DNA of 35,301 nucleotides from a virus. The stretch's first letter is position 1; every line of letters starts with the position of its first letter. The stretch spans positions 1 to 35,301 of the IMG/VR virus record IMGVR_UViG_3300032220_000304; one strand, written 5' to 3'. Positions 1,755 to 35,301 of this stretch are shown in pieces. Made by a program: the position numbers and the translations under genes. Under the pieces are notes generated by a model. That model saw nothing but the letters and a program-made list of their open reading frames with translations, was not told where the DNA came from and made no database searches.

Positions 1755-1767
1755 GGGTGTGCAACTA

Positions 1768-1783
1768 GGTGTTGGAAAACACC
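1768..1783. repeat. Perfect 6-bp hairpin (GGTGTT/AACACC, GGAA loop)
   Basis: GGTGTT (1768-1773) pairs with AACACC (1778-1783) around a GGAA tetraloop, 14 bases after the helicase stop codon. ATTTTGTT follows, so it could act as a weak plus-strand terminator. It may equally be one element of the larger structured region that runs on to 1923. Confidence 0.5.
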
Positions 1784-1784
1784 A

Positions 1785-1829
1785 TTTTGTTGCACAAGTT
1801 GGACACATTTTTTGTGTGCAGCAACAAAA
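1785..1829. repeat. 9-bp inverted repeat with inner ACACA/TGTGT pairing
   Basis: TTTTGTTGC (1785-1793) and GCAACAAAA (1821-1829) are perfect reverse complements. Inside them ACACA (1803-1807) pairs with TGTGT (1813-1817). The GTTGC/GCAAC pentamer recurs five times in alternating orientation at 1761, 1789, 1821, 1862 and 1876, reminiscent of iterons or a repeated protein-binding site. Confidence 0.7.
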
Positions 1830-1923
1830 AGTCCCTAGGCAGGGGATTATCTGCACGCGCAGTTGCTTAAGCACAGCAACTGCACGCGCAGAGTAAGATA
1901 ATCCACTGCTGACCTAGGGACTT
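1829..1923. repeat. Nested 95-bp palindrome; candidate origin or control site
   Basis: Successive arms pair concentrically: AAGTCCCTAGG (1829-1839) with CCTAGGGACTT (1913-1923), GGATTATC (1844-1851) with GATAATCC (1897-1904), and AGTTGCT (1861-1867) with AGCAACT (1875-1881). CTGCACGCGCAG also occurs as a direct repeat at 1851-1862 and 1880-1891 and nearly pairs with itself. The whole could extrude a large cruciform. No gene covers 1755-1960 (206 bp). Its place directly after the replicative helicase suggests an origin or replication operator; that role is inference. Confidence 0.75.
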
Positions 1924-1960
1924 GGCGCTTGTAGCACCACAACTAGTAGGGGAAGAAGTA

Positions 1961-2506: not shown

Positions 2507-2892
2507 TGTTAAGCATGAGCCGGGCATTCGAGGCAGCGCGCATAGACTTCGGGCCGGATATTCAGGAAGGCTGTACGCTTGTGAGCGATAGGTATTGGGC
2601 GCCAGATGTAATGCTGGCGAGGGGCATGATTAGCGAGGCGCTGTATGCCGCTGCAAAGCGGCTGCGGGATGATTATTATGCGGGGCAAGCTGGGAGGCTT
2701 GGGGCGCGTGAGGCGTTTGCACGGGCTTCTAGGGCGGTTGGGACTACCGCTATGCCTGCGCTGGCTTGGACGGTTCTTAGTCATGGTACGGTGACGGGCT
2801 GGGCTGAATGTAAGGGGATTGAGGTGGCAAAGGCGGCTGGCCAGGTGGTGCAGGCGTTAGAACGGTTAGGGGCGCACTATGAGCGCGTTTGA
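2506..2892 (+). CDS. Hypothetical helical protein, possibly DUF6456-like
   Basis: This 128-residue mainly helical protein starts at an ATG that overlaps the upstream stop (TAATG), indicating translational coupling. ATG 2515 is an alternative start. The central LYAAAKRLRDDYYAG and the ending AAGQVVQALERLGAHYERV resemble small HTH-like proteins seen before the terminase in alphaproteobacterial phages and in DUF6456-type proteins. That link is from memory of the pattern, not a search. The gene overlaps the terminase small subunit by 14 bases, so it is probably expressed with packaging. A regulatory role in late expression is possible but unproven. Confidence 0.75.
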   Translation: MLSMSRAFEAARIDFGPDIQEGCTLVSDRYWAPDVMLARGMISEALYAAAKRLRDDYYAGQAGRLGAREAFARASRAVGTTAMPALAWTVLSHGTVTGWAECKGIEVAKAAGQVVQALERLGAHYERV

Positions 2893-3433
2893 ATGGCGAG
2901 AGGGGTATGATGTGGGTAGGTTGACGCCAATCTGGATTGATGACGAGCATATGCCGAAAATATTGGATTTACTCGGCAAAGGTGTACTTATGGTTGATAT
3001 TTACCGCATTGAGGGAATGCCGAGTGCTAGTGTTATCAACCGCTGGTTGGCAGACCCGAAGTGGTGGCAGGAGTACGCGCGCGCCCGGGAACGGATGGCG
3101 CACGTCATCGCTGAAACGGCGATCAAAGAAGCAACCGAAAATAATACGGACGATCCGCAGCGCGCCCGGTTAAAATTCGACGCAAGACGCTGGTACGTCG
3201 GAAAGATTGCGCCCAGGGTTTATGGCGACAAGGTTCAGCATCAGGTGGAACTAGGCGAAAGCTATGTGGAAGCCCTGAAGCTGGCATCCCAGCGCATTAA
3301 TCAGCGGATCAAAGAAGAAAAGCAGCGAAATCAGATAGTTGACGTCGATCCAGAGACGGGCGACGCCATACAGAAAATAGGAAATGATGCCGAATTGCCA
3401 AAACCCAAGAAGCGAACGAAATCAAAGGGTTAG
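2879..3433 (+). CDS. terS: Terminase small subunit (Sf6-like)
   Basis: This 184-residue protein would recognise the phage DNA and deliver it to the large terminase. An N-terminal helix-turn-helix (about residues 20-60, around YRIEGMPSASVINRWL) is followed by the ARARERMAHVIAE region. Next comes the RLKFDARRWYVGKIAPRVYGDK stretch near residues 98-120, typical of Sf6 gp1-like small terminases. The C-terminus is charged. It overlaps the upstream gene by 14 bases. It is separated from the large subunit by a 204-bp non-coding region, unusual for otherwise overlapping genes; this gap is a candidate packaging or regulatory site. Confidence 0.88.
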   Translation: MSAFEWREGYDVGRLTPIWIDDEHMPKILDLLGKGVLMVDIYRIEGMPSASVINRWLADPKWWQEYARARERMAHVIAETAIKEATENNTDDPQRARLKFDARRWYVGKIAPRVYGDKVQHQVELGESYVEALKLASQRINQRIKEEKQRNQIVDVDPETGDAIQKIGNDAELPKPKKRTKSKG

Positions 3434-3637
3434 CGTGGATTTTTACATAATGGGCCTTATGCGGTTCCAGGCCGGGCGCCCCGAAACTGGCACCCCCGGC
3501 CCCACCCCCCCCCTTCAAAAAGCGGCGGGGGCGGGCTGGCGGTGGCATATATGTACTTACCCCCCCCGTGGGGTGGGGGCAAAAAGGCAAAACGTCCCTT
3601 TACCCCTCGTGAAAATTTAGGATAGAATCAGGCTCTC
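3434..3637. other. Non-coding gap with C/G tracts between terminase genes
   Basis: No convincing gene lies in these 204 bases. They hold a run of nine C (3505-3513), GGCGGGGGCGGGCTGGCGG near 3523-3541, and an eight-C run (3560-3567) facing GGGG-T-GGGGG (3570-3579), followed by AAAAA. Both strands have enough short G-runs to form G-quadruplexes, and the last pair can form a short C:G hairpin. In a genome where neighbouring genes usually overlap, the gap suggests a pac/cos-type or regulatory site. Confidence 0.6.
3599..3628 (+). promoter_or_regulatory. Weak candidate promoter before large terminase
   Basis: TTTACC (3599-3604) and TAGAAT (3623-3628) are separated by 18 bases. TAGAAT matches the sigma-70 -10 box at five of six positions and the -35 at four of six. 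The predicted start would fall almost on the terminase ATG, which has only a weak ribosome binding site. The call rests on consensus matching alone. Confidence 0.3.
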
Positions 3638-32217: not shown

Positions 32218-32244
32218 AAAAAATACGCTTGACCCGTATTTTTT
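32218..32244. promoter_or_regulatory. Operator: 10+10 bp perfect inverted repeat
   Basis: AAAAAATACG (32218-32227) and CGTATTTTTT (32235-32244) are perfect reverse complements with a 7-bp spacer. The spacer holds the -35 box of the plus promoter. The left arm ends four bases from the -35 of the minus promoter, so a bound dimer could control both. The regulator gene starting at 32265 is the obvious candidate protein. Confidence 0.75.
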
Positions 32245-32257
32245 TCATCACTATCCT
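32229..32257 (+). promoter_or_regulatory. Plus-strand promoter of regulator, likely leaderless
   Basis: TTGACC (32229-32234) and TATCCT (32252-32257) have a 17-bp spacer. A start about seven bases on would be near 32264, at or one base before the ATG at 32265, which has no clear ribosome binding site. The -35 lies between the operator arms. Confidence 0.6.
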
Positions 32258-32264
32258 TTCGGCC

Positions 32265-32546
32265 ATGGATCACCTCCCTTACCGAAAGCTGCTTCAGCAG
32301 AACGGCTACACGCTACGCGATCTAGCCGAAGAGGCTGGCGTATCAACCGCCACTGCTAGTCGGTGGCTGATCTGGCTGACGTATCGCGGTGAATACGGGG
32401 GTATTGCGCCGCCTATCGTGCGGCTGATACCAGTGATTAGAATGTGTAGCACCCCAGAGGTGCCAATGAACGAGATTTGGGCGCATATCTGTACCGGACG
32501 CCGGGATGGACATTTGCCCGAAAAGGCTGCGCGCGATGGTAACTAG
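32265..32546 (+). CDS. Cro/CI-like HTH transcriptional regulator
   Basis: This 93-residue protein starts at ATG 32265; an ORF start at 32229 would lie in the promoter. Residues 1-40 form a helix-turn-helix of the XRE/Cro type (YRKLLQQNGYTLRDLAEEAGVSTATASRWL). The remaining 50 residues are not a typical CI oligomerisation domain and lack the Ser/Lys peptidase site, so it is closer to Cro or a short repressor. It should bind the palindromic operator immediately upstream. Its stop codon lies within the loop of the first of four stem-loops. Confidence 0.85.
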   Translation: MDHLPYRKLLQQNGYTLRDLAEEAGVSTATASRWLIWLTYRGEYGGIAPPIVRLIPVIRMCSTPEVPMNEIWAHICTGRRDGHLPEKAARDGN

Positions 32547-34579: not shown

Positions 34580-34764
34580 TGAGGGTTAAGCACCCGCGCG
34601 ACATCACTTGCGCCAACTGTCAGTGGTACGTCCCCGCTGACAGCCGATCCGGTGAATGTCGCCTGACACCATCACACTCCGGCTACCGCTGGGTCATGAT
34701 GAAGCCGCACGATTGGTGCAGCCAGGCCAAAGAAGCCAAGGCAAAGCCAGAGGCGGAAGAATAA
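34579..34764 (+). CDS. Four-cysteine small protein
   Basis: This 61-residue protein starts in a TAATG overlap. Cys at 11, 14, 27 and 47 (CANC, GECRLTP, DWCSQ) fit one metal or iron-sulfur site of the HiPIP-like small-protein type. The C-terminus is Lys/Glu-rich. Many phages have such a gene beside replication genes, but the function is unknown. It shares the C-x2-C-(n)-C-(n)-C order with the larger protein at 7871-8329. Confidence 0.78.
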   Translation: MRVKHPRDITCANCQWYVPADSRSGECRLTPSHSGYRWVMMKPHDWCSQAKEAKAKPEAEE

Positions 34765-34772
34765 CAAACAGG

Positions 34773-34797
34773 GCGGCGGGTTACACCGCCGCTTTTT
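34773..34797 (+). terminator. Intrinsic terminator before primase gene
   Basis: GCGGCGG (34773-34779) pairs with CCGCCGC (34786-34792) around GTTACA, followed by TTTTT (34793-34797). This is a canonical rho-independent terminator ending the RusA-nuclease-SSB transcript. The primase genes downstream then need read-through, antitermination or their own promoter. Confidence 0.85.
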
Positions 34798-34815
34798 CGC
34801 AAGAACGAGGAAACA

Positions 34816-34881
34816 ATGTGCATCCCACTCAAAGACCCAGAGTACCCGCCACACAGCGAATATCCGGGGAAGCAGCCATGA
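34816..34881 (+). CDS. 21-residue leader ORF coupled to primase
   Basis: The ATG at 34816 follows GAGG, and the short product is CIPLKDPEYPPHSEYPGKQP. Its stop overlaps the primase ATG (ATGA at 34878-34881). It is Pro-rich (6 of 21), and its translation would deliver ribosomes to the primase start. It may be a translational coupling leader rather than a functional peptide. Confidence 0.55.
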   Translation: MCIPLKDPEYPPHSEYPGKQP

Positions 34882-35301
34882 GCCTGACCGCACCAAGCCT
34901 ATCAGCGCCCGCCAAAGAATGGGCGCTCTATTACCTACGGCGCGGGTGGTCCGTGGTGCCGGTCAGACGGGGCGAAAAAATCCCCGCCATTCCCTGGCAC
35001 CAATTCCAAAACCGACGCGCTACCGAAGCCGAGATTCAGGACTGGTTTGCCGATCCCACCATGGGGGTCGGGATCGTGACCGGCGCCATCAGTAACCTCA
35101 CTGTGGCGGATTTCGATGGCGACATTGGCGCCGCTACCGAACAAGACATCCTGCCCCGACTCGGGGCTGGCCCCGTTGCCCTCACCGGGGGCGGCGGGTG
35201 TCATAGGTTCTTTTCCCATCCTGGGAAGAAGGTTCCCACCAGAAAAGGTATCCTGCCGGGGATGGACATCCGGGGCGATGGTGGCTTCATTGTCGCGCCG
35301 C
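34878..35301 (+). CDS. Primase-polymerase / helicase, N-terminal part (continues at base 3/124)
   Basis: The 141 complete codons here are the N-terminus of the replication protein that continues to 1754 through the 123-bp overlap. Prim-Pol-type features are visible: an N-terminal helix ending GWSVVPVRRGEKIPAIPW (about residues 23-40), a DWFADPTMGVGIVTG stretch (about 54-68), VADFDGD (74-80) as the metal-binding acidic motif, and VALTGGGGCHRFF (about 99-111). The ATG overlaps the leader ORF stop. The frame is open to the window end, in phase with the left end. Confidence 0.93.
   Translation, partial: MSLTAPSLSAPAKEWALYYLRRGWSVVPVRRGEKIPAIPWHQFQNRRATEAEIQDWFADPTMGVGIVTGAISNLTVADFDGDIGAATEQDILPRLGAGPVALTGGGGCHRFFSHPGKKVPTRKGILPGMDIRGDGGFIVAP
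35179..35301. repeat. Right copy of 123-bp terminal direct repeat
   Basis: Exact duplicate of bases 1-123. Joining the copies gives one continuous primase-helicase frame of 684 residues without a gap or frameshift. Confidence 0.95.

Follow-up and report, generated by a model that had tools for sequence, protein, structure and literature searches.

The intergenic gap directly downstream of the primase-helicase gene of a 35.3-kb phage genome, a nested palindrome, is very probably the replication origin of that phage, read by a winged-helix domain predicted at the C-terminus of the primase-helicase itself. The window, meaning the whole stretch of 35,301 nt that was analysed, carries portal, scaffold, head, holin and endolysin genes. 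It has a 123-bp terminal direct repeat (1–123 and 35179–35301) and probably represents a complete genome, with the cut lying within the primase gene; given this repeat and the place of the cut, joining the ends duplicates 41 codons. A second intergenic gap, between TerS and TerL (3434–3637), contains long C and G runs.

Anatomy of the gap and the adjacent gene

The gap (1755–1960) extends from the stop codon of the primase-helicase gene at 1754 to the ATG of the next gene at 1961, and relatives have gaps at the same position. It combines iteron words with hairpins. A sequence-only reading had described concentric inverted repeats, an outer 9-bp repeat and five copies of GTTGC/GCAAC in alternating orientation, and all of these elements were recovered. 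The main nested hairpin (1829–1923; 95 nt) starts 74 nt past the primase-helicase stop codon, and its three arm pairs are matched at 11/11 (1829–1839/1913–1923), 13/14 (1839–1852/1896–1909) and 16/18 positions (1850–1867/1875–1892). The outer inverted repeat, TTTTGTTGC/GCAACAAAA, spans 1785–1829, with arms 1785–1793/1821–1829 matched at 9/9. Hairpin 1 (1758–1796) consists of a word-bearing stem, TGTGCAAC/GTTGCACA (1758–1765/1789–1796; 8/8 matched), and an inner stem, GGTGTT/AACACC. The word is found as GCAAC on the + strand at 1761–1765, 1821–1825 and 1876–1880, and as GTTGC, on the − strand, at 1789–1793 and 1862–1866, so that its orientation alternates strictly. The arms of the main hairpin additionally carry a core-like element, as CCCTAGG on the left (1833–1839) and CCTAGGG on the right (1913–1919), and a near-palindromic 12-mer, CTGCACGCGCAG, in two identical copies (1851–1862 and 1880–1891). 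Both 12-mers have the same orientation, one per arm, resulting in A-C mismatches on the + strand. TGCACGCGCA is retained in the relatives L014, L024 and L058.

This arrangement goes far beyond what chance composition would give. Shuffled versions of the 206-bp gap contain a mean of 1.33 copies of GCAAC/GTTGC against the five observed (P=0.007), and 0.3% of genome windows reach five. The gap has six exact inverted repeats of at least 9 bp, shuffled gaps 0.10 (500 shuffles, maximum 4). The fold z-scores are −7.1 for the + strand RNA, −9.5 for the − strand RNA and −8.4 for DNA, no shuffle folding as well, and in a structure scan of the genome the two windows overlapping the gap ranked 1 and 2 of 354.

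The adjacent gene (+ strand) is split by the record ends into 34656–35301, which encodes the Prim-Pol domain, and 1–1754, of which 3–1754 encodes the end of Prim-Pol, a RepA-like AAA_25 helicase and the predicted winged helix. The Prim-Pol domain is of the archaeo-eukaryotic type (PF09250). The helicase core has the RSF1010 RepA fold, with 1g8y retrieved at E=1.7e-42 by sequence and Z 25 by fold, the fold search covering the helicase part (residues ~1–275). For the C-terminal domain (1446–1724), AlphaFold2 models of two divergent tails predicted a winged-helix topology (helix-strand-helix-helix-strand-strand) with pLDDT values of 85.4 and 83.7; a Pfam search with the C-terminal domains alone retrieved no credible family. 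In three relatives (L129, L131 and L125), a weak Toprim-like N-terminal match replaces Prim-Pol, while the layout of helicase, tail and hairpin gap stays the same. The primase module is, as far as such matches tell, exchangeable too.

Gap types and their inheritance

Phages similar to the window (type A) have the word GCAAC in the gap at the same position. In type A′ (L012 and others), GCTAGT/ACTAGC is found at the corresponding places, and both arms of hairpin 1 are changed, to GTGCTAGT/ACTAGCAC. The copies change in concert along the A-type gap. The same holds for types B1 and B2, where GTAACA is replaced by GCAACA at all nine copies with matching spacing. More distant phages have ATCACA, GGTCAC, CGTAGC and other words around a hairpin, mostly in both orientations. 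Word copies directly downstream of the helicase gene number 5 in the window and up to 10 in relatives, the A-type word being short and less densely repeated than those of other types. Several distant viral loci contain no clear word array, and a blastn search of the gap against phages returned only chance matches of 20–29 nt.

Comparison with the same gap in relatives, which the sequence-only reading had put forward as a check, revealed compensated arms. When eight gaps of types A and A′ were placed in a fixed alignment, 93.5% of the pair cells proved to be kept and 23/54 pairs to be changed on both sides; doubly changed cells amount to 50, compared with 16 in shuffles, and 0/500 shuffles reach 50. 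Helices 4–6, which form the main hairpin, keep 92–100% of their pairs, with 18 pairs doubly changed and 43 cells changed two-sidedly versus 3 one-sidedly. Considering that nearly all arm changes are two-sided, a symmetry of double-stranded DNA is favoured over an RNA helix.

Among the sequences compared, the gap changes only together with the last ~90–110 codons of the adjacent primase-helicase gene. Between L147 and L131, identity is ~92% up to a point 270 nt short of the helicase stop, falls to 38–53% across the final 90 codons and the gap (106 bp), and returns to ~93% in the next gene. The pairs L129/L131, L004/L012 and L026/L027 have the same exchange borders, the drop in the tail being milder in the latter two. 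L004 and L026 differ by a joint exchange of helicase, tail and gap that begins at the linker following Prim-Pol; Prim-Pol itself and the downstream gene remain at ~90% or more. Conversely, L024 shares its tail with the window and keeps the word next to a different downstream gene (similarity 0.61), and L212 and L194 have the same tail and word beside a different flanking gene. Linear partial Mantel tests associated the gap with the tail given the flank (r=0.58, p=0.0002) and not with the flank given the tail (r=0.007, p=0.44). This strong result is confined to the linear partial test, the rank tests being weak (r=0.14, p=0.013 and r=0.08, p=0.21), which we ascribe to most domain similarities being noise below ~0.35.

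The right-hand border of the exchanged block is a conserved gene (1961–2506, + strand) whose product has no match in Pfam and none that is convincing among PHROGs, and a genome scan with this gene found no relative among bacterial genomes. In the A3/A5 alignments, members of its family directly follow the gap in phages of great diversity. Further downstream, TerS (2879–3433 in the window; relatives L004–L059) and diverged alleles of ORF2506 assort freely with respect to the gap types, and mosaicism around the terminase is evidently strong. The two TerS alleles, with ~48% and 82–95% identity to that of the window, both occur with A, A′, B1 and B2 gaps, and the gap type is therefore independent of TerS. 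Since the C-terminal domain is inherited with the gap and the words change in concert, this domain is a candidate reader of the word, and the comparisons above point to it as such.

Origin function and alternative readings

The proposal of a replication origin, made in the sequence-only reading, is supported by the compensated arms, the concerted change of the word, its joint inheritance with the C-terminal domain of the helicase and the position of the skew minimum in this genome. That reading had named the cumulative GC skew as a check, and the detrended circular minimum of the window falls at 1945, within the gap. The minimum lies ~100 bp or less from the gap in the window, in G001, G002 and G003 and in the unrelated genome G009, although the results for the window and G001–G003 are not independent because these genomes have flanking genes in common. 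It lies away from the gap in G008 (1.4 kb), G004 (5.2 kb) and G007 (8.2 kb).

From this anatomy, we infer how binding, melting, helicase loading and primer synthesis might proceed at the gap. By binding double-stranded DNA at the repeated word (GCAAC/GTTGC in the window), the C-terminal winged helix would bring the hexameric helicase, which is of the RepA type, to the nested palindrome. The palindrome would open or be extruded, the helicase would enter at the opened site and the Prim-Pol domain would lay primers on the exposed strands.

Co-inheritance of the gap with the C-terminal domain would look identical if this domain bound the gap solely to control its own operon or the downstream late genes, and the gap does lie upstream of the packaging and head genes. 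Such an autoregulatory operator or attenuator is nevertheless unlikely. The gap is located 3′ of the primase-helicase gene rather than at the start of that gene, a search for sigma-70-like promoters in 1600–2100 found none, hairpins together with iterons are more than a simple operator needs, and the GC-skew minimum is located at the gap. The gap may, however, have a regulatory role in addition to being an origin. We consider it quite improbable that the gap is a structured RNA or a transcription terminator in the leader of ORF1961, despite strong RNA folds on both strands, covarying arms and one short terminator-like stem (1768–1783). Rfam searches of the gap at gathering and lax thresholds returned nothing credible, and G-U pair counts by strand revealed no consistent strand preference across gap types. 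Whereas RNA helices drift via G-U pairs, helices 4–6 change on both sides; base pairing alone would not require all copies to switch to one new word, and the gap does not track the downstream gene. As a terminator candidate, the single stem is short and weak, with no conserved T-run seen, and was rejected.

The palindromic repeats would also suit a partition site or a master operator of the Cro-like HTH protein encoded at 32229–32546, both of which the sequence-only reading had entertained besides an origin. Both fared worse, and their probability is now very low. Given that the Cro-like protein stays 87–92% identical in genomes with changed gap words, a master operator with this protein as its cognate binder is unlikely. 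As for partition, the window proteins scanned, which are part of the ORFs, were not seen to include a partition gene. There is hardly any probability left for a packaging site (pac/cos) recognised by TerS. This reading draws on the proximity of the terminase genes, with the TerS gene ~0.9 kb downstream, and was rejected on the free assortment of the two TerS alleles with A, A′, B1 and B2 gaps alike.

Distribution and comparison with known systems

Arrays directly 3′ of the helicase gene are also found in other phages. The cultured roseophages CRP-821 and CRP-831 contain 10 copies of GTATAA and CRP-811 contains 11 copies of CTACAA, all three with the core CCCTTTAGG, while Rhizobium phages 16-3 and X2_25 contain 10 and 12 copies of GTGACA. 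The papers searched on the cultured relatives make no mention of a replication origin or of iterons. In bacterial genomes, 78 loci were collected with the helicase profile. Significant word repetition downstream of the helicase was detected in 36/78 of these and in 17/442 control segments (p=3e-21), about half of the loci having no clear array. A k-mer comparison for which no pattern was set in advance yielded CCCTTTAGG/CCCTATAGG-like cores. The CCCTWWAGGG-type pattern defined after this result occurs in 21/78 downstream stretches of the bacterial loci versus 6/441 controls (p=6e-14) and in 8/27 viral representatives versus 3/138 controls; these core p-values are only descriptive, since the genome loci and viral types seen earlier had gone into shaping the pattern. 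For arrays and cores alike, coding DNA made up most of the controls, and repeats are in any case more frequent in intergenic DNA. Three loci (L248, L250 and L258) have a common TCAAYAGCTTAT element within their word arrays downstream of the helicase gene, found in 3/77 loci and 0/437 controls. In L120 and L122, a CCCTATAGGG hairpin before the ORF1961 homologue follows an ORF other than the helicase; the origin may have moved, or the helicase may be encoded elsewhere.

On balance, we lean towards the view that these loci represent a class of origins that is widespread in phages and prophages and serves their RepA-type primase-helicases. A CCCTWWAGGG hairpin core would be the site of opening and loading, framed by a fast-changing word that the C-terminal winged helix reads. 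Tail and origin would recombine as a block smaller than a gene, so that every phage would have its private origin. If so, co-infecting relatives could not use each other's initiator, and the many natural pairs of tail and word would form a recognition code. What would be new is the exchange of tail plus origin as a block, along with the many different words that surround a recurrent core. The papers searched contain no description of either, which does not in itself prove absence.

Few phage origins are known outside model systems, and here a candidate reader comes along with the origin, together with a natural set of matched domains and words. Tail and origin are exchanged as one block, in a lock-and-key-like manner, with unchanged surroundings. 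Genomes that are nearly identical except for the final ~90 codons and the adjacent gap are nature's own domain swaps. They make a joint change in the specificity of initiator and origin directly testable, and they also allow private origins to be tested as separators of competing phages. For uncultured phages, a simple rule for finding origins would be to look 3′ of the RepA-type primase-helicase gene.

Several known systems resemble the gap in part. The lambdoid O protein is an initiator whose specificity varies together with the iterons, as proposed here; O is no helicase, however, and the ori is situated inside the O gene. Initiator helicases of the SaPI/SCCmec/P4 type belong to SF3/AAA+, and P4 alpha, an SF3 helicase, has a distant second site, crr. 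P4 alpha combines primase, helicase and a winged-helix repeat-binding domain in one protein (PMC4234260). The window protein has the same combination, its winged helix being predicted and its repeat binding proposed, but the primase of P4 alpha is of the Toprim type. The initiator helicases of SaPI and SCCmec (Cch2) bind iterons directly downstream of their own gene via the C-terminal domain (PMC7581432). A multi-copy short word is likewise found directly downstream of the helicase gene here. The helicase, however, belongs to another family (AAA_25, with the RSF1010 RepA fold), nested hairpins and the CCCTWWAGGG core are common, and primase and helicase are one protein.

The position and size of the stem-loop, ~100 nt directly 3′ of the replication gene, are like those of the origin of the archaeal plasmid pRN1 and of the proposed origin of phage BIP-1, and the window protein also has the archaeo-eukaryotic Prim-Pol domain. 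Replication of pRN1 requires a stem-loop (~100 bp) directly 3′ of ORF904, a gene for Prim-Pol, helicase and winged helix; stem-loops of this type are variable in sequence and conserved in structure, and ORF904 did not bind its own stem-loop specifically in vitro (PMC4234260). ORF904 differs in being an SF3 helicase with an origin devoid of iterons, whereas here the helicase is of the RepA-type AAA_25 family and repeated words are woven into the hairpins. The plasmid RSF1010 (IncQ) has the same RepA fold as the window helicase and also combines iterons with hairpins at its origin (oriV iterons, ssi priming hairpins). Its functions are distributed over three separate proteins, RepA, the primase RepB′ and the iteron-binding RepC, while a single chain here comprises Prim-Pol, AAA_25 helicase and the predicted DNA-binding domain. 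Because helicase family or protein organisation differs, the window locus falls outside the pRN1, SaPI/P4 and RSF1010 families as these are defined. By analogy, its origin most likely works as theirs do, and the gap is best read as an iteron-plus-hairpin origin, a RepA-type variant of pRN1/SaPI/P4/RSF1010-like origins.
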